The notes under the pieces are model-generated. The model worked only from the letters and a program-made list of their open reading frames with translations. It was not told where the DNA came from and did no database searches. The translations under genes and the position numbers were made by a program. Shown in pieces: positions 14,801 to 29,307 of a stretch of DNA of 40,000 bases (positions within the stretch are counted from its first letter, which is position 1; every line of letters starts with the position of its first letter). The stretch spans positions 1 to 40,000 of the forward strand of contig JACRGO010000009.1 in assembly GCA_016212295.1 (NCBI GenBank), read 5' to 3'. The DNA comes from Nitrospinota bacterium. Lineage in GTDB: Bacteria > Nitrospinota > Nitrospinia > JACRGO01.

Positions 14801-15964
14801 TCAATGTCCGTTATTATGCCTCAAGAAAGTCGGAATGTCGTACTGGGTTTCGTATTCTATCTTTGAGTTAACGGTCGGCTGCAAATGGAAATGCTTGTCC
14901 CCCAGTTTCTTTCCGGTGCGAAGATAGGCCGGCTTATCGTATGAGCGGGCGTCAGGGGTGACCACCGGCAGGGCGTCAACAGCCTTCATTTCGACCTTCG
15001 CCTCCAGGTCTGATCTTCTGTTGAATCCAGTGGCTATGACCGTCACCCTCATTTTTCCTTCCATTTCAGGGTCTATGACGGACCCGAAGATGATGTTCGC
15101 GTCATCGTGGGCTTTTTGCTGTATGAAGAGCGTGGCCTCGTTGACCTCGTGAAGGGTCATGTCCGGTCCGCCGGTGATGTTGATCAGCATGCCCTTGGCG
15201 CCGTCCACGCTGTTTTCCTCCAGGAGCGGACTTGAAATCGCGCCGGTTGCCGCGTCAATCGCCTTGCGTTCTCCCTTGCCGAGGCCGGTCCCCATCAGGG
15301 CCATGCCCATGTCCATCATGATGGTCTTGACGTCCGCGAAATCGAGATTTATCAGGCCGGGTTTCTGGATCAGGTCGGAAATCCCCTTGGCCGCCTGGCA
15401 GAGGACGTCGTCCGCCACCTTGAACGCGGCTGAGAGCGGCTGTTTGCCGACCACTGAAAGGAGCTTCTGGTTCGGGATGACGATCAGGGTGTCCACGCAT
15501 TCATTCAATTCCTCTATGCCTCTTTTCGCCTGCTGGATGCGGCGTTTTCCCTCGAAATCAAAGGGCTTTGTCACTATGCCGACCGTCAGGATCTTGTGCT
15601 CCTTGGCGATCCTGCCTATCACGGGCGCGGCCCCGGTGCCGGTCCCGCCGCCCATTCCGGCGGTGATGAAGACCATGTCCGCGTCCCTGATATATTCCGC
15701 TATTCTCCTCTCGTCCTCGAGGGCGGCCTTTTGTCCGACCTCCGGATCTCCCCCTGCTCCCAGGCCGCGCGTGAGCTGCGGTCCAAGCTGAATCTTATTC
15801 GGGACCTTTGAGCAGCGCAGGACCTGGATGTCCGTGTTTGCCACGAGGAATTCCACCCCAGTCAGGCCGGACTCCATCATTGTATTGACCGCGTTGCCTC
15901 CGCCCCCACCCACACCGATGACCTTTAATCTCGCTACATTCTCCGTTTCCGCGAACTCAATCAT
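14801..15964 (-). CDS. ftsZ: Cell division protein FtsZ
   Basis: The tubulin-like GTPase that builds the Z-ring at midcell. The 387-residue protein has all core motifs: [13 protein letters not shown] (15-27), the GTP-binding signature [10 protein letters not shown] (105-114), NLDFADV with the T7-loop NxDxxD-type residues, and the C-terminal conserved peptide DIPTFLR that contacts FtsA. The variable linker is short (about 40 residues). AAGGGGA lies before the ATG. It is the last gene of the dcw cluster, 31 bases after ftsA, and is followed by a repeat array. Confidence 0.98.
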
Positions 15965-15995
15965 GGTTGTTCCCCTTAAAAAAAATAAATGGATA

Positions 15996-17231
15996 TTAAA
16001 AGAATTCCTCCACCCACCCCTTCATTCTTGAGAAAATTTTGTTGAACATGTTCCTTCCGGAAAGGTCCGGCTGGCCCTTGTCCTTCTTGTCCGTTTTCCT
16101 GTGCCCATAGAGCAGCAAGCCCACGCTTGTGGCGTACATGGGCGAGTTGACCACGTCCACCAGTCCGCCTATTCCCCTTGGATATCCCCTGCGGACCGGG
16201 AGTTGGAAGGCACGTTCCGCGGCCTCCAGCATCCCTTCCATGATCACAGTGCCGCCCGTGATTACAAGCCCGGACGAGAGCGCGTCCTCGTAACCGCTTG
16301 CAGTGATCTCCCTCTTCAGGAGGTCGTAAAGCTCGACCACGCGGGGCTCGATTATTTCCGCCAGGATTTCGCGCGATAAAATCCGCGGCTCGCGTCCGCC
16401 GACGCTTGGGACCTCTATGGACTCCTTGTCCTTTACCATGCCCGCTATGGCGCAGCCGTATGCCTTCTTGATCTTCTCGGCCTCGCTGTGCGGCGTCCTG
16501 AGGCCGATGGCTATGTCGTTCGTGAGATGGTCGCCTCCAATGGCGAGCACTGAGGTGTGCTTGATCGCGTCCTGGCTGAAGAGCGCGATGTCCGAGGTCC
16601 CGCCGCCTATATCCACCATCGCGACGCCGAGTTCCCTCTCCTCCGGGGTCAGGACCGCCTCGCTGGAAGCCAGGGGCTGTAGCACGATATCGTTGACCTG
16701 GAGTCCGGCCTTGTTGACGCTCTTCACTATGTTCTGGGCGGAGGTCACGGCGCCTGTCACTATATGGACCTTGACCTCAAGCCTCACGCCGTGCATTCCC
16801 AGCGGGGACTTTATGCCGTCCTGGTCGTCCACGATGAATTCCTGGGGCAGGACGTGGATCACCTCGCGGTCCATCGGGATCGCGAGGGCCTTCGCGGCGT
16901 CGATGACGCGGAGGATGTCGGGCTGTGTGACTTCCTTGTTTTTCACAGCGATTATTCCGTGGCTGTTGAAGCCCTTGATGTGTCCGCCTGCTATTCCCAC
17001 GTATACGGAATCAATCTCCATTCCGGCCATCAACTCCGCTTCTTCCACGGCGCACTTGATGGACTCCACGGTGGTTTCAATGTTTACCACCACGCCTTTT
17101 CTAAGGCCCCGCGAAGGGTGCTGGCCGATTCCGATGATGTCGATCCCTCCCTCCTCGTTGACTTCACCGATGATGCAGCAAATTTTCGTAGTGCCGATGT
17201 CCAGGCCTACGATAGGAGCATTTTTTGCCAT
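15996..17231 (-). CDS. ftsA: Cell division protein FtsA
   Basis: The actin-like ATPase that tethers FtsZ to the membrane. The 411 residues start with the phosphate-1 loop [15 protein letters not shown] and include the phosphate-2 motif [13 protein letters not shown] and adenosine motif [11 protein letters not shown]. The protein ends in an amphipathic helix ([17 protein letters not shown]), the usual membrane-targeting tail. The ribosome site GGAAGGTGA is good. It sits in the normal place between ftsQ and ftsZ, but a 200-base spacer with a large repeat hairpin separates it from ftsQ. Confidence 0.97.
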
Positions 17232-17262
17232 CGTAAATCACCTTCCTTTCTTGAAAAGTTTT

Positions 17263-17423
17263 AAGTGACTAAAGTGAGCTAAAGTTAAAAGTGAGCTAAA
17301 GTTAAAAGTGAGCTAAAGTTAAAAGTGGCTTAAGTTGCGGTGGAAGTACCACTTTTTTTAACTTTAGCTCACTTGTAACTTTAGTTCACTTTAGTCACTT
17401 GTAACTTTAGCTCACTCTTAACT
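17263..17423. repeat. AGTGAGCTAAAGTTAAA hairpin array, ftsQ-ftsA spacer
   Basis: Left arm 17263-17337 holds near-identical tandem copies of AGTGAGCTAAAGTTAAA. Right arm 17351-17423 holds the reverse complements (TTTAACTTTAGCTCACT and variants). Together they would fold into a hairpin of about 70 base pairs with a short loop. The same word family fills the spacers at 22484-22664 and 25202-25333, and nowhere else in the window. Confidence 0.9.
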
Positions 17424-17431
17424 TTTTCCCT

Positions 17432-18310
17432 TCAAACCCCCTCCGTGAATTTAACCACCGCCTTTTTCTCGTAGCACAGGTCAATGGACTTTATGGACTT
17501 GCCCTCCATCCTCGCGTAATCGAAAATGGCCCTCAGCCTGGAGAGTTTTTTCGGGAGGTCCTGCGTGTCCACGCGGATTTCCGTTTTGTTCTTCCTGGTG
17601 ATAAGGGACATTTCGTACTTGTTCTCGATCCTCAAGCCTGCCACCGGGTCTTCAAACAGCCTTGTTTCCCCGGCGTACTTCAGCAAGTGTAGGCCGGTCA
17701 GGAATATTTTCGGGAAGACCTGGCCGCCGAGGTCCGGCCTGTCCTCTCCCGCGCCCGCAAGGAGCGGCAGGTCCGGGTACTCTTTTTCAGAGAGCTTCGC
17801 TATTATGAATCCCTTGGCGTTCACCAGAAACAGCTCGCCCCTCCAGAAGACCCTGGCGAAGAGTTCCCTTTCCGTGATTTCAATGGCAAGGCCGGACGGT
17901 AGGTCGCGCCGCACAACGGCCTTCTCCACCCACGGGTTTCGCATTATATTCTTAGAGATGTTCTCCAGATTAAGCTGAAAGGAGTTTTTCCCAGTATGCA
18001 CGCCTGAAAGCGACAGTATCTCAGTTTCCGGTATCCTTTTATTTCCTGCCACCACCACCTTATTCAGGAGGAAATGTTCGTCCTGGAAGATATAGCTATA
18101 TGCATTCATCCCGACGGCGGTAGAGGCCGCGGCAAGCAGGGCCATGAAAGACGCCTGGACGCAAAAAACCACAAGATAAGCCATCGTGTTGTAAATGGCC
18201 CGGAAGGAAATCGGCTTCCTTGGTTTACTTGCGGACTTGGAGCGGACCCGCGCGCGGGTGCGAGGGGAAACCACGCCCTTCCTTGATATTGCAATGCTTG
18301 CTGACGCCAT
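17432..18310 (-). CDS. ftsQ: Cell division protein FtsQ
   Basis: A bitopic divisome protein linking FtsL/FtsB and the septal synthase. The 292-residue sequence has a long basic cytoplasmic N-terminus (to about 40), one membrane helix (about 43-65), a POTRA domain (about 82-152, with VVVAGNKRIPETEIL and NPWVEKAVVRRDLPSGLAIEI) and the beta domain ending in IKSIDLCYEKKAVVKF. The start lies three bases after the ddl stop, which supports translation coupling. No FtsB gene is seen here. Confidence 0.92.
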   Translation of the reverse strand: MASASIAISRKGVVSPRTRARVRSKSASKPRKPISFRAIYNTMAYLVVFCVQASFMALLAAASTAVGMNAYSYIFQDEHFLLNKVVVAGNKRIPETEILSLSGVHTGKNSFQLNLENISKNIMRNPWVEKAVVRRDLPSGLAIEITERELFARVFWRGELFLVNAKGFIIAKLSEKEYPDLPLLAGAGEDRPDLGGQVFPKIFLTGLHLLKYAGETRLFEDPVAGLRIENKYEMSLITRKNKTEIRVDTQDLPKKLSRLRAIFDYARMEGKSIKSIDLCYEKKAVVKFTEGV

Positions 18311-18312
18311 GT

Positions 18313-19227
18313 TTATTTCACCGTGTCTAAAATGTTTTCAAGCAGGACGCCGAATTCCATTCCCGCCTGCTTAGCGGCCATCGGCAGGAGACTGGTCCCG
18401 GTCATACCCGGGAGCGTGTTACATTCCAGGACAAAGGGATTTCCGCCAGAGTCCAGCATAAGGTCCACCCTGGAAAGCCCCCGGCATCTCAGGACCTTGT
18501 GCGCCTGGAGGGCCAGTTCAGAGCACCTCCTTGCCGCTTCAGAACTCAAGGGAGCGGGGCATAGGTAGTCGGTTTTCCCCTTGGTGTACTTTGCCTCGTA
18601 ATCGTATAGCCCGCCCTTTGGTTTTATTTCCACGATTGGAAGCGCCCTTTCTCCGACGATTCCAACAGTGAGATTCCTGCCGTCGATAAAATCCTCCACC
18701 AGGACCTCGTCATCCATTTTAAAGGCGCATAGGATGGCTGCCTCAAGCTCTTCCTCGCGGCGGACAATGGAAAGCCCTATGGTGGAGCCTTGGGACGCGG
18801 GCTTTACAATGCAAGGCAGCTTCAGGTCCCTTTTGGCCTTTTCCATGAAATCCGGGTCGTCCCTGAAAATGGCTTGAAAGTCCGGGGTCGGTATTCCATG
18901 AAAAATGAATATTTCCTTTGCGATGGTTTTATTCATGCTCAGGGCGCTGCCGAGTATCCCGGACCCCACGTAAGGTATGCCCATCCATTCCAAAAGGCCC
19001 TGCGCCGCGCCGTCTTCCCCCAGCGCCCCATGAAGGGCAATGAAGGCGATATCGATTTTGGATTCCTTGATTTTTTCCCAGAGGTCCCGGCCGGCCATGA
19101 TCGGCGCAACGTCGTAGCCCTGTTCTTTCAGGGCGGCCGCAACCGCGCTTCCGGTTTTAAGGGATATTTCCCTTTCAGAGGAAAAGCCCCCCATGATTAC
19201 GCCGATTTTTTTATTTTTCCATTTCAT
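18313..19227 (-). CDS. ddl: D-alanine--D-alanine ligase
   Basis: An ATP-grasp enzyme that joins two D-alanines for the end of the peptidoglycan stem peptide, feeding MurF. Present are the N-terminal MGGFSSEREISLKTG, the ATP-grasp segments CIVKPASQGSTIGLSIV and VEDFIDGRNLTVGIVG, and the C-terminal LECNTLPGMTGTSLLPMAA with the Mg-binding and substrate residues. At about 304 residues it has the usual length. ATG 19227 is preferred to a GTG three codons earlier (19236), because the GTG leaves little room for a ribosome site; the difference is small. Confidence 0.96.
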   Translation of the reverse strand: MKWKNKKIGVIMGGFSSEREISLKTGSAVAAALKEQGYDVAPIMAGRDLWEKIKESKIDIAFIALHGALGEDGAAQGLLEWMGIPYVGSGILGSALSMNKTIAKEIFIFHGIPTPDFQAIFRDDPDFMEKAKRDLKLPCIVKPASQGSTIGLSIVRREEELEAAILCAFKMDDEVLVEDFIDGRNLTVGIVGERALPIVEIKPKGGLYDYEAKYTKGKTDYLCPAPLSSEAARRCSELALQAHKVLRCRGLSRVDLMLDSGGNPFVLECNTLPGMTGTSLLPMAAKQAGMEFGVLLENILDTVK

Positions 19228-19236
19228 TGTATTCAC

Positions 19237-19303
19237 TCACCGCAAAGGCGCAGAGGGCGCAAAGAAAAGCCAAAACTTTGCGTTCTTTGCGTCTTTGCGG
19301 TGA
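19237..19303. repeat. CGCAAAG-word inverted repeat, murB-ddl spacer
   Basis: Arm 19237-19264 (starting TCACCGCAAAGGCGCAGAGG) and arm 19276-19303 (ending GTCTTTGCGGTGA) are reverse complements at about 24 of 28 positions. The word is the same family as the repeats at 1037-1248. The left arm overlaps the region just before the ddl start. Confidence 0.8.
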
Positions 19304-19331
19304 TTAAGATTGTAATTATTTTCAAAAGTGG

Positions 19332-20261
19332 TTAATTCATAATTTGAATTTCAAGTTCCAGATTTATTCCGAATTTCTCCATCACCTTTTTCCTGGCCAT
19401 GTCGATCAGTTCCTGAATGTCCGACGCCCTTGCCCCTCCGGTGTTTACAATAAAATTAGCGTGTTTCCTGGATATCTCGGCGCCGCCGGCCCGCGTTCCC
19501 TTTAGTCCGGCGGACTCTATCAAACGTCCCGCGCAATCGCCCGGCGGGTTTTTAAATACCGACCCTGCTGAAGGGAACTCAAGGGGCTGCGAGTTTTTCC
19601 GCCATTGGAGATGTTCCTTCATCTTTTTCAAAATTTCCCCGGCCTCGCCCGCGGCCAATTTCAACTTCGCGCCAAGAATAATTCCCATGTCCCTCAGGGA
19701 AGACCATCGATAGCCGAACTTGATTTCTTCCCTGGAGAGATTGCGCGCCCGGCCTTCCATGTCCATTACTCTGACCGATTCCACCAGGGAAGCTATCTCC
19801 CGGCCCCCGGCCCCTGCGTTCATTAATAACGCCCCTCCAAGGGTCCCTGGAATTCCGGCCAGGCATTCCATTCCGGTGAGACCATGTTTCAGGGCAAAGG
19901 CGGCCAAGCCGCTAAGAACCACCCCGGCCCCGGCCTCTATCTCCTTGGATTTTTCTCCATTTTTCAGCAAGGTCTTCTTCCTGTAATTTCCGTCCAGTAA
20001 AATAACCACGCCCCTTATGCCCTGGTCCGATACCAGAATATTCGAGCCCCGTCCGATGACCCTGGCCGGAAGGCCCTTTTCCCCGGCGAACTCCAGGGAG
20101 CGCCTCAGTTGGCCGTCATCCTCGGCCCAAAGCATGAGGTCCGCCTTTCCTCCCACTTTAAAGGATGTGTAGGGCGCCAAGGGCTCATTGGCCTTGAAGC
20201 GGATTTTTTCGCGCCTCAACCTCTCTACTTCGACGTTCGACGTTCGATGTTCGATGTTCAA
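19332..20261 (-). CDS. murB: UDP-N-acetylenolpyruvoylglucosamine reductase MurB
   Basis: A flavoenzyme that reduces UDP-GlcNAc-enolpyruvate to UDP-MurNAc. The family motifs are all present: APYTSFKVGGKADLML, VIGRGSNILVSDQG, GLTGMECLAGIPGTLGGALLMNAG, FGYRWSSLRD, PSAGSVFKNPPG, and SRKHANFIVNTGGA. The start is a problem. No ATG or GTG precedes the conserved core, and the first in-frame start (TTG 20261) lies in a TCGAACATCGAACGT-word repeat, so the first 13 residues are a translation of that repeat. A later TTG at 20219 would exclude it but has its purine-rich stretch too close. murB follows murG by 24 bases; murC, usual at this place, is missing. Confidence 0.95.
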   Translation of the reverse strand: MNIEHRTSNVEVERLRREKIRFKANEPLAPYTSFKVGGKADLMLWAEDDGQLRRSLEFAGEKGLPARVIGRGSNILVSDQGIRGVVILLDGNYRKKTLLKNGEKSKEIEAGAGVVLSGLAAFALKHGLTGMECLAGIPGTLGGALLMNAGAGGREIASLVESVRVMDMEGRARNLSREEIKFGYRWSSLRDMGIILGAKLKLAAGEAGEILKKMKEHLQWRKNSQPLEFPSAGSVFKNPPGDCAGRLIESAGLKGTRAGGAEISRKHANFIVNTGGARASDIQELIDMARKKVMEKFGINLELEIQIMN

Positions 20262-20273
20262 TGTTCGACGTTA
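20228..20273. repeat. TTCGACGTTCGATGTTC array at the murB start
   Basis: Five to six degenerate copies of a GTTCGA(C/T) heptamer (for example TTCGACGTTCGATGTTC on the plus strand) cover the murG-murB junction and the first codons of murB. Translated on the minus strand it gives NIEHRTSNVE, a peptide often seen at mis-called protein starts. Confidence 0.85.
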
Positions 20274-20285
20274 ATTCTTTATTTT

Positions 20286-21368
20286 TTAACCAGCCAAGTC
20301 CTCCGCCATCATGGCTATCCTCGAGGCCGCGTCAGGCTTCGAGAACTTCTTGATCTCCTCGCCCACCACCATCAAGGCCAAGGGGTTCTCCATGTAATAA
20401 GTGATTTTTTCAGCAAGCCTCTCTCCCAGGAATTCGTCCTCCAGCAGGACCTCCGCCGCGTGGTTTCTTTCAAGCGCCCTGGCGTTTATTTCCTGGTGGT
20501 TGTCCGCCGCTGTTGGCAGCGGTATTAAAATCGCGGGCTTCCCGGCGGCCGCCAGTTCCGAAAGGGTCATTGCGCCGGCCCGGCAGACGATCAGGTCCGC
20601 GAACCTGAAGGCGTCGAACATGTCGTATATAAAGGGCTGGACGTCGGCCTTGACCCCAAGCTCCTCGTATTTTTCCTTTATCCATTCACAATCCGCCGTT
20701 CCTGACTGATGAAGGATGCTGATTGGCCTTGGAAAATCCATGAGCACGGCGGCGGCTTCCACCATCGCCATGTTGATTGCATGAGACCCCTGGCTTCCTC
20801 CGAATATCAGCAATGTAAACTGGTCCACATTTTCCACGTCCTTCAGCCGCGGTTTTATTTCAAGGAACTCCCTGCGGACCGGATTTCCCGTTGCCTCGGT
20901 TTTGGACCTTGGGAAATAGTCCGCTGACTCCTTAAAGCCAAGCGCGATGGCATTAACTATCCTTGCCGCTATCCTGTTCGTTGCGCCGGGCAGCACATTC
21001 TGCTCGTGGATCAGGCGCGGCACTCTTAACAGCCAGGCCGCGGCGAGGACAGGTCCTGAGACATACCCTCCCGCGCCAAGGGCGACGTCAGGCCGGAACA
21101 CCGCCATGTAAAAGACGGCCTGAAGGAACCCGAAGGGCAGTTTGAAAAGGGACTTCAAGATATCGGGCAAGGACTTCCTTTTCATTCCGCCGGCGGCGAT
21201 GGTCCTGAATTCCAACTCTTCCCTTCGCAGAATTTCCACGCCGCATCCTTTTTTTGTTGTGATAAAGAGGACCTTGGTTTCCCAATTCCTATCGAGCAGT
21301 TCCCGCGCCACGGCTATGGCGGGATAGAGATGTCCTCCAGTCCCTCCAGCGGCGATAAGTATTTTCAT
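20286..21368 (-). CDS. murG: MurG, lipid II-forming GlcNAc transferase
   Basis: This peripheral membrane GT-B enzyme adds GlcNAc to lipid I, making lipid II. The glycine-rich loop GGTGGHLYPAIAVA with H13 is at 8-21, the acceptor-domain segment LGAGGYVSGP at about 97-106, HEQNVLPGATNR at 121-132, and the second G-loop FGGSQGSHAIN at 189-199. The UDP-GlcNAc site region CRAGAMTLSELAAAGKPAILIPLP follows as two adjacent stretches. The 360 residues are normal length. The start overlaps the ftsW stop as ATGA, showing tight coupling. Confidence 0.97.
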   Translation of the reverse strand: MKILIAAGGTGGHLYPAIAVARELLDRNWETKVLFITTKKGCGVEILRREELEFRTIAAGGMKRKSLPDILKSLFKLPFGFLQAVFYMAVFRPDVALGAGGYVSGPVLAAAWLLRVPRLIHEQNVLPGATNRIAARIVNAIALGFKESADYFPRSKTEATGNPVRREFLEIKPRLKDVENVDQFTLLIFGGSQGSHAINMAMVEAAAVLMDFPRPISILHQSGTADCEWIKEKYEELGVKADVQPFIYDMFDAFRFADLIVCRAGAMTLSELAAAGKPAILIPLPTAADNHQEINARALERNHAAEVLLEDEFLGERLAEKITYYMENPLALMVVGEEIKKFSKPDAASRIAMMAEDLAG

Positions 21369-22480
21369 GGCTGTTTTTTCACATACATTTTGTTGGAGAC
21401 ATTCAGCAAAATCCCGGCGCTCACCATTGACACTATAAGGGACGAGCCTCCCACGCTTATAAAGGGAAGAGGCAGCCCCTTTGTCGGGAGCGCCCCCACC
21501 ACCACTCCGATGTTGATCAGGGCCTGCACGCTGATCAGCAGGGAAAATCCCACGGCCAGATAGCGGCCGTAAAGATCATCGACCTTCATGGCAACGCGCA
21601 GGCCGCGCCACAGAAAAACAATGAAACACAAGAGGACAAAAGCCACCCCGATGAACCCCAACTCCTCGCCTATCACTGAAAAAATAAAATCCGTGTGCGG
21701 CTCAGGTAGATAGAAGAGCTTTTGCTTGCTGTTCCCCAGGCCAAGGCCGGTGACGCCTCCCCGCGCAATGGCAAGCAGGGACTGGATGATTTGAAAGCCG
21801 GAGTCCGTGGGATCGTCCCATGGATTCAAAAAAGCCAGAATCCTCCTCTTCCGGTAGGGGACGAACATGACCGCGTAAGCCAGGACCGGCAAGGAGCAAA
21901 GGAGCGTGAGAAACGTGTGCTTCATCCGCACCCCTGCGACAAAGAGGAGCATGGAAACCACAACGGTGATGACTATGGCGGTGCCAAGGTCCGGCTGTAT
22001 GGCGATCAACATGGCGAGCGCTCCCAGGACTATAAGGTTCGGGAGATAGCCGACGGTGAAGTCCTCGATCTTGTCCGCTTTCCTGGAAAGGGTATGGGCC
22101 ATATAGAGAATCAGGGAGACCTTGACCAGTTCCGAGGGTTGAAAGATGAATGGGCCCAGCACCAGCCACCTCCTTGCTCCTCCTACTTCCTTGCTGAAGA
22201 CCGGGAAGAGGATGAGGACAAGCATGAAAACTGAAGCCGCGAAGAGTGGGAGGGTCGCCTTCTTCAATTGTTCATAATCAACGAGCATGACTGACACCAT
22301 CAGGACCGACCCGATTCCCACCCAGGCGATCTGGCGCTTCAGGAAATAAAGGTGGTCTCCGTATCTTTCCATTGCGATAATCGCGCTGGCGCTGTAACTC
22401 ATGATGACCCCTATGGACACCATTACAAGGGTGGAGATGAGTATCCAGGGGTCGAATCTTTTTGTGATTTTTATGTTCAT
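21365..22480 (-). CDS. ftsW: FtsW, septal peptidoglycan glycosyltransferase (SEDS)
   Basis: A polytopic SEDS enzyme that polymerises lipid II with its partner FtsI. The 371 residues have about ten membrane helices. Family marks are GGARRWLVLGPFIFQPSELVK (as two stretches, 99-120), PDLGTA (163-168), and the catalytic-loop PEPHTDFIFSVIGEELGF (259-276), where D264 is the likely catalytic aspartate. LPFISVGGSSL (338-348) follows. The gene order is mraY-ftsW with a 189-base repeat-filled gap; in related clusters murD lies here. Confidence 0.96.
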   Translation of the reverse strand: MNIKITKRFDPWILISTLVMVSIGVIMSYSASAIIAMERYGDHLYFLKRQIAWVGIGSVLMVSVMLVDYEQLKKATLPLFAASVFMLVLILFPVFSKEVGGARRWLVLGPFIFQPSELVKVSLILYMAHTLSRKADKIEDFTVGYLPNLIVLGALAMLIAIQPDLGTAIVITVVVSMLLFVAGVRMKHTFLTLLCSLPVLAYAVMFVPYRKRRILAFLNPWDDPTDSGFQIIQSLLAIARGGVTGLGLGNSKQKLFYLPEPHTDFIFSVIGEELGFIGVAFVLLCFIVFLWRGLRVAMKVDDLYGRYLAVGFSLLISVQALINIGVVVGALPTKGLPLPFISVGGSSLIVSMVSAGILLNVSNKMYVKKQP

Positions 22481-22483
22481 GTT

Positions 22484-22664
22484 ACAAGTGACTAAAGTTA
22501 CGAGTGAGCTAAAGTGACTAAAGTTACGAGTGACTAAAGTGAACTAAAGTTAAAAACGAAAAATCGTTACATATATATTTAAACTTAGTGGACCTTCGTG
22601 GCTATGATCTTTTGTTGCCGCTTTCAACTTTAGTCACTTGTAACTTTAGTCACTTTAGCTCACT
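22484..22664. repeat. AGTGACTAAAGT hairpin array, mraY-ftsW spacer
   Basis: Tandem words AGTGACTAAAGTTACG and AGTGAGCTAAAG fill 22484-22555; their reverse complements (ACTTTAGTCACTTGTAACTT and variants) fill 22624-22664. The array occupies nearly the entire gap where murD is usually found. It belongs to the same family as those at 17263-17423 and 25202-25333. Confidence 0.9.
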
Positions 22665-22669
22665 ATCCT

Positions 22670-23761
22670 TCACCTTATTTTCAAAGTACTCAAACTGAAC
22701 ATTGCAAGGATAATGGCGACTATCCAGAACCTGACTATAACCTTCGGCTCCTCCCAGCCCTTTTCCTCGAAGTGGTGGTGCAAAGGGGCCATGCGGAAAA
22801 TCCGCTTGCCCCCGGTCATTTTGAAATAACCAACCTGGAGGATGACCGACATCGCTTCTATCACAAATACCCCGCCGATGAAGAAGAGCAGGAGTTCATG
22901 CTTGACTATCACGGCCAGGGTCCCCAGCAGGGCCCCCAAGGGAACGGAGCCGACATCGCCCATGAATATCTGGGCCGGATAGGAATTGAACCAAAGAAAA
23001 CCAAGGCACGATCCTATGGCCGCGCCGCATAGCACTGTCAGCTCCCCGCTTTCCTTGATGTTGTAAATCATCAGGTATTGCGCGAACTTGGTATGGCCGC
23101 ATACGTAAGTCACCACCATCAAGGCGAAGGTGGCTATGATAATCGGGCCTATGGCCAGTCCGTCCAGTCCGTCCGTGAGGTTGACCGCGTTGGACGTTCC
23201 CACTATCACCATGATGATGAAAAAAAGATAAAAAAGGCCCAGGTCCGGTCTGTAGTTTTTCAGGAAGGGTATGCCGAGTTTCGTGGCGAAGCCCGCCCTG
23301 CCGCTGTCAAAATAAACAATATACACCGCCACGATCGACGCGAAAAAAAACTGGAGGAAGAATTTCTCCCTTGGCGACATTCCCTGCTTCCTGATTTTTT
23401 TGATCTTCATGTAGTCGTCGGCGAAACCTATGGCGCCATAGGCAATGGCCACGAACATGGCCAGTAAAATGTAGCGGTTGGAAAGATCGGCCCACAGCAG
23501 GACCGAAACTATAAGGGAGCCAAGGATCAGGAGGCCGCCCATTGTGGGGGTACCGGATTTTTTATGGTGGCTTTTCGGCCCGTCCTCCCTTATTTTTTCC
23601 CCGATTTCAAAGGCCCGCATGGTCCTAATCACCAGCGGACCTATCAGCAGGCTCAGCAACAGGGCGGTCAAAAGCGAATACACCGACCGGAAGGTAATGT
23701 ATTTAAAAACATTGAAAAGAGTGTATGTATCGCTTAGCGGATATAGTAAGTGGTAAAGCAT
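22670..23761 (-). CDS. mraY: MraY, phospho-MurNAc-pentapeptide translocase
   Basis: A ten-helix membrane enzyme that transfers phospho-MurNAc-pentapeptide to undecaprenyl phosphate, giving lipid I. The 363-residue sequence has the conserved GPKSHHKKSGTPTMGG (61-76), the aspartate pair D115-D116 in GFADDYMK, NAVNLTDGLDGLA (191-203) and the HHH motif PLHHHFE (326-332). The start lies four bases after the murF stop. Confidence 0.97.
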   Translation of the reverse strand: MLYHLLYPLSDTYTLFNVFKYITFRSVYSLLTALLLSLLIGPLVIRTMRAFEIGEKIREDGPKSHHKKSGTPTMGGLLILGSLIVSVLLWADLSNRYILLAMFVAIAYGAIGFADDYMKIKKIRKQGMSPREKFFLQFFFASIVAVYIVYFDSGRAGFATKLGIPFLKNYRPDLGLFYLFFIIMVIVGTSNAVNLTDGLDGLAIGPIIIATFALMVVTYVCGHTKFAQYLMIYNIKESGELTVLCGAAIGSCLGFLWFNSYPAQIFMGDVGSVPLGALLGTLAVIVKHELLLFFIGGVFVIEAMSVILQVGYFKMTGGKRIFRMAPLHHHFEEKGWEEPKVIVRFWIVAIILAMFSLSTLKIR

Positions 23762-23765
23762 GGCC

Positions 23766-25157
23766 TCAGTTTTCCATTATTTTTTTAATAATCCTCTCCA
23801 TCCCCATGCCGCGTGAGCCCTTGAGGAGGACGCAGTCCCCTTTTTTCGCGAAATCCCTCAGAAAACCTGCGGCCTCTTCAGGGTCCTTGAAACCCTTAAC
23901 CCTTGAGGAATCAAAGCCGTTCTCAATGGCGGACATGCCGCAGGCCTCGGCCTCGTCCCCGAAGGTAACGAAGAAATCAAGTTTCTTTTCCGCGACTATT
24001 TTTCCTATACGGGAGTGGGCGGACTTTGAATATTTTCCTAGCTCCAGCATGTCGCCAGCGACGAATATTTTTCTCCCGGCCACGTGTTTGCCGGCCAGGG
24101 TTTCAATGGCTGCGGACATGGACGCGGGATTGGCGTTATATGCGTCGTTGATAAGCATGACGCCGTTCCACTCCAGGGTCTCCATGCGCATGGCCAGGGG
24201 CCTGTAATTTTCAAGGCCCTCGGCTATACCGTCACCATTGATTTCAAGCAGTTCCGCCACTGCAGCGGCGCATAGGGCGTTATAAAGGTTATGCATTCCA
24301 GGGACCATGACCTTGCAGCGGGCGATTTTCCCGCCGCGCGCCACCAGGCTGAATTCAATGCCGGAATCCCCAAGCCGGATCTCCTCCGCCGTGAAATCCG
24401 CCTTGTTCCTCATGCCAAAAGAGACGACCCTTCCCCTTGCGGCGTTTTTCATGGCGTCAAAGCCGAAGCTGTCGGAATTCAAAACCACGCCGCTTTCGCG
24501 GTCCAGGCAGTCCACAAGCTCTTTTTTGGCCTTCAGGACGTTTTCAATTGAGCCCAGTGATTCCAGATGGGCCTCTCCTATATTAGTCACCGCCCCGTAT
24601 CCCGGCCTGGCGGTATCGCATAAAAGCGTTATCTCGCCAAGGCCGCTCATTCCCATTTCCAGGACAGCCGCTTCATGGGTCTCGTCCAATTCAAAAAGCG
24701 TGAGCGGCAGGCCGATATGGTTATTGAAATTTCCCTGGTTCTTTAACACCCGGAACTTCGTTGACAGGATGGAGGCCGCCATTTCCTTTACAGTGGATTT
24801 TCCATTACTGCCGGTGATCCCGACCACCGGGATATCGAATTTCATACGATGGCAGCGGGCGATGTCGTGCAGGGCCTTCAAGGTGTCATCCACCTTTATT
24901 ACCGTGGCCCTGTTCCCGGCGTTATGGGAAAACTTTTTTATTTCGTCTTCCCGCTCAGACAGGATAGCAACGGAAATGCCTTTTCCCATTGCCTCTTCCA
25001 TGAACAGATGGCCGTTTTTGCTTTCGCCCTTGATGGCGATGAAGAGTCCGCCTTCAGCGGCCTTCCGGGAATCTATATAAATCCCGGAAAATTCCGTGTC
25101 CGCCTTCCCGGCAATCGCCGTCCCGCCCGTGGCCGCCATAAGTTCCTTGGTTTTCAT
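23766..25157 (-). CDS. murF: MurF, UDP-MurNAc-tripeptide D-Ala-D-Ala ligase
   Basis: A cytoplasmic ATP-dependent ligase that adds the D-Ala-D-Ala made by Ddl to UDP-MurNAc-tripeptide. From ATG 25157 it has 463 residues: an N-terminal domain with DSR, the ATP loop GITGSNGKSTVKEMA (113-127), the MurF-type NQGNFNNHIGLPLT (about 140-153), EMGMSGLGEI, and the C-terminal INDAYNANPASM stretch. An in-frame TTG 15 codons earlier starts in intergenic word sequence (CGCGGCTGCGCCGC) and was rejected. murF is the only Mur ligase in this window. Confidence 0.96.
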   Translation of the reverse strand: MKTKELMAATGGTAIAGKADTEFSGIYIDSRKAAEGGLFIAIKGESKNGHLFMEEAMGKGISVAILSEREDEIKKFSHNAGNRATVIKVDDTLKALHDIARCHRMKFDIPVVGITGSNGKSTVKEMAASILSTKFRVLKNQGNFNNHIGLPLTLFELDETHEAAVLEMGMSGLGEITLLCDTARPGYGAVTNIGEAHLESLGSIENVLKAKKELVDCLDRESGVVLNSDSFGFDAMKNAARGRVVSFGMRNKADFTAEEIRLGDSGIEFSLVARGGKIARCKVMVPGMHNLYNALCAAAVAELLEINGDGIAEGLENYRPLAMRMETLEWNGVMLINDAYNANPASMSAAIETLAGKHVAGRKIFVAGDMLELGKYSKSAHSRIGKIVAEKKLDFFVTFGDEAEACGMSAIENGFDSSRVKGFKDPEEAAGFLRDFAKKGDCVLLKGSRGMGMERIIKKIMEN

Positions 25158-25201
25158 TGAGATCAATTTTAAACTTCCATAACGCGGCTGCGCCGCAATC
25201 A

Positions 25202-25333
25202 AGTTAAAAGTGACTAAAGTGAGCTAAAGTGACTAAAGTTGAAAACAAAAAATTGCCTTTCCACCACAACTTTAGCTCACTTGAAACTTTAGTCACTTTA
25301 GCTCACTTTAGCTCACTTTAGTCACTTTTAATT
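25202..25333. repeat. AGTGACTAAAGT hairpin array, ftsI-murF spacer
   Basis: Forward words at 25202-25242 (AAGTGACTAAAGTGAGC and similar) face five reverse-complement words at 25267-25333 (CTTTAGCTCACTTTAG and similar). The array fills the gap where murE is usually found. Confidence 0.9.
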
Positions 25334-27226
25334 TCACAATACCCTTTGCACCTGAAGATCGTTATAGTGGCGCGGAGAATTTTTCAATTGCTCCAGGGCC
25401 TGGGCGATATTTCCGCCGAAAATTTTGCCGTCCTCATATTCCTCCTCGTCGTCCCTGAAATAATCCTGGAAGTTCTTTCCATCCGTTCCAGGATCGGCCT
25501 GGTTCACCCATATCACCCTCCCCTGCTTGGAGGGGATGTTCAGGTAACGCGCGGTTTGCATGGCTATATTGCGAAAGACCGGAGCAGCCACGCTCCCGCC
25601 CCAGACAACGGTTTTCGGCTCGTCCACCATGACCAGGATCGCCACTTGGGGATTTTCCGCCGGGAAGTAACCCGCGAAGGAGGCCAGGTATTTTGTCTTG
25701 GAATAGGCGTTGATCTCCCTGTCGAATTTTTGCGCGGTCCCGGTTTTGCCCACGACGGAATAGCCTTCCAGGGCGGAATTCTTGCCCGTGCCTTCCAGCA
25801 CTACCTCCCTGAGTATGGCGGTCACTATTAGGCTGGTTTTCTTGCTGACGACCCGCCGGACTATTTCAGGCGAGAACAACTTCAAGGGCTTGCCGTTTTT
25901 GTAAATCCCCTTGACCACGCGAGGCTTCATCAGGACCCCTCCGTTGGCGATGGCTGAAAGAGCGGTGATGATCTGTATGGGCGTTACGGAGATTTCCTGT
26001 CCCATGGATACCGAGCAGAGTGACAAAGGAGTCCAGTTTTTCAGCTCCCTGTTAAGGCCGGTGGCCTCGCCGTCCATGTCTATGCCGGTCTTGGCGCCGA
26101 AGCCGAACTTTTCAATGAAATTATAGTAGCGTTCCTTGCCCAGCTTTTGGCCTATTTTTATCGCGCCGATATTGCTCGAAAGCTTTATTATGTCCACCAT
26201 GGACAACCATTCATACTTTTTCTTTTTTGCCTCGTGTATCGCCACATTGCCGACAAGCAGTTCCCCGTTTTCACAGTTGAACATTGTCTTGGGGTCTATC
26301 CCGGATTCAATGGCCGAGGCGGCAAGGAACACCTTGAAAGTGGAGCCTGGCTCGTAGGCGTTGGAGATGATCTTGTTCCGCCAATTGGCGGACGGGTAAC
26401 TTTTATACTGGTTCAGGTTAAAGGGGGGATAATCCGCCATGGCAAGGATTTCGCCGGTGGCGGGATTCATCACTATGGCTGCCCCTTCCTTGGCGCCGGT
26501 TTCAATTACCTTGTCGCTTAGTTCCTTCTCCGCTATATGCTGGAGCGTTTCGTCTATGGTAAGGACAATGTCGGATTGCTTGAATTCCTTGGATTGCTTT
26601 TCGATTTCCACTGACCTCATCATGCGGCCCTTTGCGTCCTTTTCCATGACGATCCATCTGCCGCCCCCGCGCAGGTATTCGTCATAAGAATGCTCCACCC
26701 CGGCAAGGCCCTTGAGGTCGAGTCCGGAAAAGCCTATCAACCTCGAGGCCATCTCCCTTTTGGGATAAAACCGTTTGAATTCCTTGACGGAGCCGATCCC
26801 TTCCAGATTTTTTTCCTTGAGGCTGGCGGCGTACTCCGGCAATGCCTGCCTGGCCAGCCAGACGAAATTCTTCCCGGTTTTGAATTTATCGATAAATGAT
26901 TTCTCGTCCGTGTGCAGGGTCTCCGCGAGGACCTTCGCGGTCTTTTTAAAATTCTTTACTTCGGAGGGGTTCGCGAAGAAGGAGTCCACTTCTATGTCAG
27001 CCGCTATTTCCCTCCAGTTTCTGTCGTAGATCATCCCCCTCCTGGGCTGGGAGTAAAAGGTCCTTGTGTATTGCCTTTCGGATTTCTCGGTAAGGGCCCT
27101 GTGCTGAAGGACCTGCAAGTCAAAGAGTCTGCCGAATATCCCCACCACCGCTATCGCAAGCAGGGGAATTATAAGCTTGATCCTTTTTTTTAACTGGTTT
27201 TCAGGACTCTTTTTTCGCGACGCCAT
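25334..27226 (-). CDS. ftsI: FtsI, septal peptidoglycan transpeptidase (PBP3 type)
   Basis: A bitopic class B penicillin-binding protein that crosslinks septal peptidoglycan with FtsW. The 630-residue sequence has a basic N-terminus, one membrane anchor (about 17-36), a dimerisation/pedestal domain (RRGMIYDRN at 62-70) and the transpeptidase domain with nucleophile S295-T-F-K298, S350-S-N352 and K494-T-G-T497. After the enzyme core there is an acidic stretch (DDEEEYEDGK) and a tail; no PASTA domain is visible. It overlaps ftsL by 26 bases. Confidence 0.97.
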   Translation of the reverse strand: MASRKKSPENQLKKRIKLIIPLLAIAVVGIFGRLFDLQVLQHRALTEKSERQYTRTFYSQPRRGMIYDRNWREIAADIEVDSFFANPSEVKNFKKTAKVLAETLHTDEKSFIDKFKTGKNFVWLARQALPEYAASLKEKNLEGIGSVKEFKRFYPKREMASRLIGFSGLDLKGLAGVEHSYDEYLRGGGRWIVMEKDAKGRMMRSVEIEKQSKEFKQSDIVLTIDETLQHIAEKELSDKVIETGAKEGAAIVMNPATGEILAMADYPPFNLNQYKSYPSANWRNKIISNAYEPGSTFKVFLAASAIESGIDPKTMFNCENGELLVGNVAIHEAKKKKYEWLSMVDIIKLSSNIGAIKIGQKLGKERYYNFIEKFGFGAKTGIDMDGEATGLNRELKNWTPLSLCSVSMGQEISVTPIQIITALSAIANGGVLMKPRVVKGIYKNGKPLKLFSPEIVRRVVSKKTSLIVTAILREVVLEGTGKNSALEGYSVVGKTGTAQKFDREINAYSKTKYLASFAGYFPAENPQVAILVMVDEPKTVVWGGSVAAPVFRNIAMQTARYLNIPSKQGRVIWVNQADPGTDGKNFQDYFRDDEEEYEDGKIFGGNIAQALEQLKNSPRHYNDLQVQRVL

Positions 27227-27611
27227 CCGTTTTTTTGTCCCCCTGGCCGGCTGCCCCCGGAGAAAGGTCCGCTGACTCCTTTTTAAGGCCCATGCGAACG
27301 ATTACAACGCGGGAGTCTTCCGGGAAATCCATTTTCAGCCTGTTCCTGGCTATAGTCTCTATTTTTTTCATGGACCGAAGGTTGGCGACTTCAATCCTCA
27401 TGAGATGGTTGGTTTGCAATAAGGAGTTGTATTGTTTTTGGAGTTCGTCCCTCTCATAACCAAGCTTTACAACCCTTATTTGCGGCCAGATATAAATCAA
27501 TCCCCCGATCAGGATAAGAACGACGCAGAGGGTATATTTCGCGGCCTCCACGAAGCCGCTGCCGCCGCCTCTAAATACTGTTTTTTTCAGCTTGCCCTTT
27601 AAACTAACCAT
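27201..27611 (-). CDS. ftsL: Cell division protein FtsL
   Basis: A short bitopic divisome protein (136 residues) that forms a coiled coil with its partners. It has a basic N-terminus, one membrane helix (about 26-42), then a periplasmic coiled coil (about 46-80, ERDELQKQYNSLLQTNHLM) and the septal-type segment IETIARNRLKMDFP. The charged tail (KKTDGVAKKES) overlaps the ftsI start. The call rests on position and shape, as FtsL sequences diverge fast. A GGAGGT ribosome site precedes the ATG, after two stem-loops in the leader. Confidence 0.9.
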   Translation of the reverse strand: MVSLKGKLKKTVFRGGGSGFVEAAKYTLCVVLILIGGLIYIWPQIRVVKLGYERDELQKQYNSLLQTNHLMRIEVANLRSMKKIETIARNRLKMDFPEDSRVVIVRMGLKKESADLSPGAAGQGDKKTDGVAKKES

Positions 27612-27638
27612 CTTTTACCTCCAATAAAAAGAGGAGGG

Positions 27639-27670
27639 GCCCTGGCCCATTGGGGGGAACGGGCCAGGGC
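27639..27670 (-). promoter_or_regulatory. Perfect 10-bp stem-loop in the ftsL leader
   Basis: GCCCTGGCCC (27639-27648) and GGGCCAGGGC (27661-27670) are exact reverse complements with a 12-base loop. On the minus strand it is followed by CCCTCCTCTTTTT and then, after about 10 bases, by the ftsL ribosome site. It may act as a weak terminator or attenuator controlling entry into ftsL. Confidence 0.55.
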
Positions 27671-27680
27671 TTATGAAGTG

Positions 27681-27744
27681 AAAAACCGAAGACACCAGGA
27701 AACATGCGTGAATATAAATTTTTTGATCCTCCTGGTCTCTTCGG
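27681..27744 (-). terminator. Candidate intrinsic terminator after rsmH
   Basis: On the minus strand CCGAAGAGACCAGGA (27744-27730) pairs with TCCTGGTGTCTTCGG (27700-27686) at 14 of 15 positions, with a 29-base loop, and is followed at once by TTTTT. It lies about 110 bases after the rsmH stop and would separate a mraZ-rsmH transcript from the rest of the cluster. The loop is long for a terminator. Confidence 0.6.
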
Positions 27745-27851
27745 GGGGAGGTGCTTATCTAAAATATTTAACACGTAAATTTTCATCTCTTTGCTTATAA
27801 AGCCGGAATAAAAATTGACAATTTACAATTGAAAATTGAATAGATGGCGTA

Positions 27852-28790
27852 TCATGCCAGTTTTTCCGCCGCCCTCAATTTAGCGCTTCTGGACCGAGGG
27901 TTCCTTCTAACCTCTTCCTCCCCGGCGCAAACCGCTTTTCTGGTAATCCTTTTCAATACAGGCTTCCTGCCGCACGCGCATTGGGGAATTTTGGGAGGGC
28001 AGACGCAGCCCCTTTCCTTTTCCACGAAGAACTGCTTGACGATCCTGTCCTCCAGGGAATGAAAGCTGATCACCGCCAGCCTTCCGCCGGGCTTGAGCAT
28101 GTCCAATGCCCCCGGGAGCGCTTTTTCCAGCAGACCGATCTCGCCGTTTACGGCGATTCTCAGGGCCTGGAAGGTTTTCGTGGCTGGATGTATCCTGTCC
28201 GGGCGGAATTGGCGCGGGATGGCGTCAGACACTATGTCAGCCAACCTGCGCGTTGCAGTGATGGGACTTTTTTCTCTCTCCTCGATAATCCTGAAGGAGA
28301 TTCTTTTCGCCCATCGTTTTTCCTCGCCATAATTCTTTATAATCGCGGCCAGTTCCTTTTGGGGCAAGGTGTTCACCAAGTCGGAGACGGTGATTTTTTG
28401 GGACCGGTCCATACGCATGTCGAGGGGACCGTCCGAGGAAAAGGAAAATCCCCTTTCCACTGTCAATAATTGTCTTGTGGATACTCCAAGGTCCATCAAA
28501 ATTCCGTCCACTCCCTCCGGCGCCGAAGAGACCGCCTCTTTTATATTGATGAAATCGAGTTTTTTAATTTTTGCCCGGCTTTGGAAACGCGCCAGCCTTT
28601 CCCCTGCGGCCATGATTGCCTCCTGGTCCTTGTCCATTCCTATCAAGGTCCCGGACGGGGAGCTTCTTTCCAATATGGCCTCGGCATGGCCCCCGTCTCC
28701 CAGCGTCGCGTCAATATAAAGTCCGCCAGGCTTCACATCCAGGCATTGCAGGACCTCCTCCACCATTATAGGGACGTGAAGGATTTCCAT
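27852..28790 (-). CDS. rsmH: 16S rRNA (cytosine1402-N4)-methyltransferase RsmH
   Basis: An S-adenosylmethionine-dependent enzyme that methylates C1402 in the ribosomal P site; it is the second gene of most dcw clusters. The 312-residue protein shows HVPIMVEEVLQCL, the SAM-binding YIDATLGDGGHAEAIL, DGILMDLGVSTRQL, GFSFSSDGPLDMRMD, and the C-terminal RLAVISFHSLEDRIVK. It begins one base after the mraZ stop; an upstream start at 28817 would overlap mraZ and was rejected. Confidence 0.97.
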   Translation of the reverse strand: MEILHVPIMVEEVLQCLDVKPGGLYIDATLGDGGHAEAILERSSPSGTLIGMDKDQEAIMAAGERLARFQSRAKIKKLDFINIKEAVSSAPEGVDGILMDLGVSTRQLLTVERGFSFSSDGPLDMRMDRSQKITVSDLVNTLPQKELAAIIKNYGEEKRWAKRISFRIIEEREKSPITATRRLADIVSDAIPRQFRPDRIHPATKTFQALRIAVNGEIGLLEKALPGALDMLKPGGRLAVISFHSLEDRIVKQFFVEKERGCVCPPKIPQCACGRKPVLKRITRKAVCAGEEEVRRNPRSRSAKLRAAEKLA

Positions 28791-28791
28791 G

Positions 28792-29223
28792 TCACATTTC
28801 CGAGAGCTTATTCCCAAGCTCCTCGAACTGCCCTTCCTTTTCCGCCATGAATTTGTCCCACCGCGCCTTGTCCCATACCTCTATCATCCTCAGCACCCCC
28901 ACTATCACGACTTCCTTATTAAGGCCGGCTTGGCCGCGGAGGGATGGCGGGACCAGTATCCGTCCGTGCTTAACGGCGCACTCCGAGGCCCTGCCGTAAA
29001 AAAGGCGGTAGAAGTCCTGCACCTCCCTCTTCAGCGGGGGCAATTCCCTCCATTTTTCCTCAAGGATGGCCCATTCGGACTGCGGGTACACCACGATGCA
29101 TTCCTTGTTCACGGAAAGGATCAGGTTGTTCCCGTATTTTTTCTCCAGGACCTCCTGGTAGCGGGAAGGTATATTAATCCTGCCCTTTCCGTCTATATTG
29201 GCTGTGTAATGTCCAAGAAACAT
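28792..29223 (-). CDS. mraZ: MraZ, transcriptional regulator of the dcw cluster
   Basis: A 143-residue DNA-binding protein of double AbrB fold that forms rings and binds short direct repeats in its own promoter. It has the usual FLGHYTANIDGKGRINIPSR start with D11-x-x-G14-R15, and a second, slightly eroded copy around G87-R88 (KHGRILVPPSLR). ATG 29223 gives the normal family length; longer frames run into the operator repeats. It heads the cluster, with promoter and operator directly upstream. Confidence 0.96.
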   Translation of the reverse strand: MFLGHYTANIDGKGRINIPSRYQEVLEKKYGNNLILSVNKECIVVYPQSEWAILEEKWRELPPLKREVQDFYRLFYGRASECAVKHGRILVPPSLRGQAGLNKEVVIVGVLRMIEVWDKARWDKFMAEKEGQFEELGNKLSEM

Positions 29224-29231
29224 AGTTTTTT

Positions 29232-29276
29232 CGGCACTAAAAAGCACACTCCGGCATTTTTCGGCATTCAGCGGCA
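29232..29276 (-). promoter_or_regulatory. Variant MraZ operator: five 10-bp direct repeats
   Basis: Read toward mraZ, TGCCG occurs at exact 10-base steps: units start at 29276, 29266, 29256, (29246, degenerate TGCTT) and 29236. The period and place match the known MraZ operators (TGGG(A) plus a 5-base spacer in Escherichia coli), but the core is TGCCG. The units begin at the predicted transcription start and cover the leader. Confidence 0.7.
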
Positions 29277-29278
29277 CA

Positions 29279-29307
29279 ATATTACACCATGTCCATATTT
29301 TTGTCAA
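29279..29307 (-). promoter_or_regulatory. Strong sigma70 promoter of mraZ
   Basis: On the minus strand: a perfect -35 TTGACA (29307-29302), exactly 17 bases, and TAATAT (29284-29279; 5 of 6 consensus bases). Transcription would start near 29272, within the first operator unit. The rest of the divergent spacer up to 29578 is AT-rich and shows no clear plus-strand promoter. Confidence 0.8.

Follow-up and report, generated by a model that had tools for sequence, protein, structure and literature searches.

A putative MraZ operator with a lineage-specific repeat core at the dcw promoter of a Nitrospinota bacterium

What reads the short, regularly spaced repeats that separate a promoter from mraZ in a Nitrospinota bacterium, given that their letters differ from those of the MraZ boxes of Escherichia coli? 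The window, i.e., the whole stretch of 40,000 nucleotides that was analysed, carries on its minus strand the arrangement described in the original prediction. TTGACA (-35 hexamer, positions 29302 to 29307) and TAATAT (-10 hexamer, 29279 to 29284), separated by a 17-bp spacer, are followed before mraZ by five units at exact 10-bp steps, four reading TGCCG and one TGCTT. Both hexamers were identified from the sequence and by a pattern scan, and the -35 box is further supported by its fixed distance to the operator in the phylum. The promoter had been called near-perfect; it is a good one, matching the consensus at 10 of 12 positions in the scan; a reading with an 18-bp spacer and a TG ahead of AATATT obtains the same score.

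When the units are set in register with known boxes, their core is [G/A]TGCC, TGCCG being the same motif taken one base late. The five units downstream of the -10 box, also on the minus strand, are GTGCC (unit 1, 29273 to 29277), ATGCC (unit 2, 29263 to 29267), ATGCC (unit 3, 29253 to 29257), GTGCT (unit 4, 29243 to 29247), and GTGCC (unit 5, 29233 to 29237), the last of them located 14 nt 5′ of the mraZ ATG at 29223; their first bases are at 29277, 29267, 29257, 29247, and 29237. A chain scan added a sixth in-phase unit that had been missed, GTGTA (unit 0, 29283 to 29287), which lies over the -10 box. The congener (L004) has a counterpart in the same position, and the unit may be a coincidence with the promoter letters. 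GTG is present in four of the six units and ATG in two, while the TGGG of E. coli is not found, the units reading TGCC, TGCT, or TGTA. TGGG had been taken as the general core of known MraZ operators, but what the known boxes share is GTG, of which TGGG is the E. coli form; the core of the window has indeed changed at positions 4 and 5, with GTG largely kept. The array had also been placed clear of the -35 and -10 boxes and downstream of the start site. Five units do lie past the -10 box, but one overlaps it, and the five, spanning about -5 to +39, are over the predicted start site, the position reported in E. coli and Burkholderia cenocepacia. Thus, the locus has direct repeats of 10-bp period before mraZ, a GTG core in its units, and units that follow the -10 box and cover the predicted start site, as MraZ operators do. 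Between 29224 and 29232, 5′ of the mraZ ATG, the window has no Shine-Dalgarno-like sequence; mraZ of the congener has an AAGGA that overlaps the last operator unit.

The repeat chain is far beyond chance. Six [GA]TG units at 10-bp steps were equalled in none of 20,000 shuffles of the 135-nt upstream stretch, in which the longest chain had four units and appeared twice. With a pyrimidine imposed at position 4, the array is the sole chain of at least three units on both strands of the window, and 100 shuffled 40-kb windows, scanned on one strand, gave nine three-unit chains and none longer. Self-identity at a lag of 10 amounted to 30 in the window, against 18.9 +/- 3.9 in dinucleotide shuffles (reached in 0 of 500), and lag 10 was the only one between 5 and 15 to stand out. 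In the 3.74-Mb genome, the pattern RTGCC-N5-RTGCC-N5-RTGCC occurs once, at the mraZ promoter.

The gene that follows (28795 to 29223, minus strand) codes for a protein of 143 aa and is the one MraZ gene found in the genome. The protein matches Pfam PF02381 in two stretches (94.6 bits) and the TIGR00242 equivalog with 123.1 bits for a cut-off of 98.35. Its AlphaFold model (pLDDT of 93.7) compares with the MraZ structures of Mycoplasma pneumoniae and Mycoplasma genitalium at Z scores of 18.8 to 20.2 and an rmsd of 1.9 to 2.2 over 135 to 136 residues, and the curated models together with this predicted fold place it in the MraZ family. Two DxxxR motifs are typical of MraZ, rather than required. 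The N-half motif is canonical in the window protein (D11-G-K-G-R15), and the C-half motif, K85-H-G-R88, lacks the Asp and is one residue short relative to DxxGR, two features common to seven families of the phylum. Because the curated models accept the protein well over the cut-off, the altered motif identifies it as a variant without removing it from the family.

The same promoter precedes the rest of the dcw cluster (14801 to 28817, minus strand), whose open reading frames are arranged in the order rsmH, ftsL-like, ftsI, murF, mraY, ftsW, murG, murB, ddl, ftsQ, ftsA, and ftsZ, the names being assigned by eye from the translations. The murE, murD, and murC genes are absent from their usual slots in the cluster (14801 to 29223, minus strand), and the gaps at ftsI-murF, mraY-ftsW, and murG-murB are smaller than 200 bp. 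Three further Mur-ligase-type genes are found on other contigs (C15, C61, and C158).

We compared the upstream region of mraZ across the phylum, in a sample of 77 genomes, all of one class, of which 66 have an MraZ match. In those 66 regions, identity at a lag of 10 was 0.43 versus 0.27 after shuffling, with no comparable lag, and an array precedes mraZ in nearly all of them, as it does in E. coli and its relatives. Delftia and Burkholderiaceae matches obtained in a contig search for named relatives were judged false hits. The 10-bp pattern is conserved among relatives, which supports the 10-bp period and the MraZ operator identity put forward in the original prediction, but the TGCCG letters are not. 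The unit core is GTGTC-like in families f2, f4, f5, f7, f8, and f9, GTGGG in f6, GTGGT in f3 (one genome), and [G/A]TGCC in f1, the genus of the window. The units of the second member of f1, its only congener, are GTGTA, GTGCC, GTGCC, ATGTC, GTGTT, and GTGTG, with CC in two of the six; ATG units are also common in f5.

The placement of the array bears on the level at which it might act. As the repeats are mostly within the predicted transcribed leader, and near the start codon in the genus of the window, they could function in the mRNA to control translation rather than as a DNA operator. However, in 48 of 60 regions, 28 to 30 nt separate the beginning of the -35 box from the first unit, whereas the distance from the array to the start codon is anywhere between 13 and 92 nt across the phylum. 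Being fixed relative to the -35 box and loose relative to the start codon, the array is tied to the promoter and not to translation. A function in the mRNA leader also fits poorly with the exact 10-bp helical period and with the unit over the -10 box, and we consider it extremely improbable.

A DNA operator might still serve another regulator that recognizes phased repeats. Mollicute HsdC recognizes similar GTG repeats, and a GTG repeat alone is therefore no proof of MraZ binding, but the spacing of the HsdC repeats differs by 1 nt. The array is found upstream of mraZ in E. coli and relatives of it as well as in almost all of the 66 genomes of the phylum, it is unique in the genome, and its letters change in concert with the MraZ loops, as described below; together, these observations make such a regulator very unlikely. 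Comparative sequence evidence indicates that the repeats are almost certainly bound by MraZ, and the locus as a whole is very probably best explained as the autoregulatory MraZ operator of the dcw operon, with cores and loops that have diversified.

In the mechanism that we propose, MraZ would repress its own dcw operon through the phased repeats. We infer that it binds as an octamer along one face of the DNA, with one subunit per 10-bp unit, and that its occupancy of the -10 box, together with ~40 bases from the start of transcription, would block RNA polymerase. Within a unit, the opening [G/A]TG would be read by the N-half loop (D-x-K-G-R), and the bases around position 4 by the C-half loop. 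Lineages whose C-half loop is devoid of Asp and shortened by one residue would use GTGTC-like units, and those with a canonical loop GTGG-like units; the genus of the window would have drifted further, from GTGTC to [G/A]TGCC.

The relationship between the C-half loop and position 4 was analyzed in an alignment of MraZ proteins from the phylum, E. coli, and 100 sampled proteobacterial genomes, 64 of which had a match. Arrays were called on [GA]TG alone, which yielded 108 forward arrays. Where boxes were observed at alphaproteobacterial loci, they lay on the opposite strand, and these loci were therefore left out of the count. The D-x-x-G-R loop, present in f3, f6, E. coli, and the gamma- and betaproteobacteria, goes with G at position 4. 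The families with a pyrimidine at this position have a C-half K-[H/S]-G-[R/K] sequence, one residue shorter and without Asp; in G053, a member of f5, the motif is QAGGK. Position 4 was mostly a pyrimidine in 55 of the 56 arrays associated with the K-type loop (one tie) and mostly G in 49 of the 52 associated with DxxGR (two pyrimidine, one tie). Further Burkholderiales, from a set sampled for another idea that includes 4 regions counted before, had G at position 4 in 156 of 187 units, and all of their loops were of the DxxGR type when inspected by eye.

This correspondence might also be a coincidence of shared ancestry, with position 4 drifting unread by the protein, an explanation that competes with the recognition code only. 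In the RsmH tree, independent switches are few: a minimum of three changes in loop type is required, of which only one falls on well-supported branches, and a single K-type clade is only mildly rejected (p-AU of 0.014); rsmH may have travelled together with mraZ. Some DxxGR proteins accompany GTGCA units, and in Mollicutes an MraZ C-half motif of the DxxxR type goes with boxes that have either G or T at position 4, showing that the loop does not strictly fix this base. On the other hand, genomes fall on opposite sides in 55 of 56 and 49 of 52 cases, and f6, with its DNQGR loop and GTGGG units, is placed among K-type families in the RsmH tree. Coincidence is thus possible, if on the unlikely side. 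We regard the covariation of loop type and position-4 base in the phylum as suggestive and do not count it as proof; that the two changes are cause and effect is what we infer from the sequences.

The original prediction anticipated that a changed core would come with changes in the DNA-contact residues of MraZ. Such a change accompanies the replacement of G by a pyrimidine at position 4, in seven families, but not the T-to-C step of the window's own genus, for which no matching loop residue was found among the aligned MraZ proteins. G12, in D-G-K-G-R, is the only N-half loop residue special to this genus among K-type proteins, bar G021. It was rejected as an explanation for the C at position 4, as it occurs with GTGG units in sampled Burkholderiales and an enterobacterium (L160, L164, L166, L188, and L086; by eye). 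N17 was similarly dismissed as an indicator of a position-4 T, as N17 proteins with GTGGG units exist (L101, L105, and L107). R88 and H86 are shared with the GTGTC family f2 and partly with f4. The T-to-C step is best interpreted as a tolerated exchange of one pyrimidine for another.

The other end of the unit core yielded a second association. Among all aligned proteins, only those of G053 (Ala), G021 (Ser), and G020 (Asn) have lost K13 of the N-half motif, and these three genomes are alone in the phylum in having no [GA]TG chain. Lacking the leading G, their units, in upstream regions L059, L062, and L063, respectively, read TTGTC/TAGTC or TTGTC/ACGTC, and in both G021 and G020 they are split into two blocks ~21 bp apart. 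The loss of K13 corresponds to two changes in the RsmH tree, and the association suggests that the leading G is read by K13. We give an even chance to a stepwise rewiring in the phylum, in which the short K-type loop would have led to a pyrimidine at position 4, and loss of the lysine would have removed the need for a leading G.

Few bacterial regulators are as widespread as MraZ, which controls the cluster for division and the cell wall. How its loops choose bases has only now become accessible structurally, with cryo-EM entries 9r4j and 9sz7, which show MraZ on its promoter, a "4 box promoter" in 9sz7. A single phylum with GTGGG, GTGGT, GTGTC, [G/A]TGCC, and G-less operators and matching loops represents a natural test set for the recognition code, and the rewiring, if true, would provide a readable residue-to-base code for a near-universal regulator of cell division.

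How does the predicted operator compare with known ones? GTG is shared by the MraZ boxes of Bacillus subtilis, E. coli, and mycoplasmas. The E. coli operator (L073) is built alike, with 10-bp repeats (GTGGG three times, followed by GGGGT) whose end is 14 nt upstream of the mraZ ATG, and the autorepression of dcw by E. coli MraZ is what we predict for the window. The E. coli Pmra operator was reportedly described by Eraso et al. in 2014 as TGGGN repeats with 5-nt spacers. The two systems differ in the core, GTGGG versus [G/A]TGCC, and in the C-half loop, DGAGR versus KHGR. In some divergent proteobacterial regions upstream of mraZ (L141, L130, L138, and L146), judged alphaproteobacterial from their sequences, CCCAT boxes are found on the opposite strand at about 10-bp steps, which would reverse the orientation of MraZ on the promoter. 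In B. cenocepacia, the four repeats of the PmraBc promoter follow the -10 box and overlap the start site, and MraZ binding was established by gel shift; the E. coli repeats are likewise downstream of the -10 box (PMC7761207). The window array has the same placement relative to its predicted start site, whereas in the Burkholderiales sampled, GTGG units go with a DxxGR loop. The Mollicutes operator, (AAAGTGKN3)3 (PMC5282649, PMC8475190), resembles that of the window in its 10-bp period, its GTG core, its location at the mraZ promoter, and, in M. genitalium, the report of a single perfect MraZ site in the genome (PMC8475190). It differs at position 4, with G or T rather than mostly C, and the window has ATG for GTG in two units. 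The operator is thus ordinary in kind and place, and its core is lineage specific.
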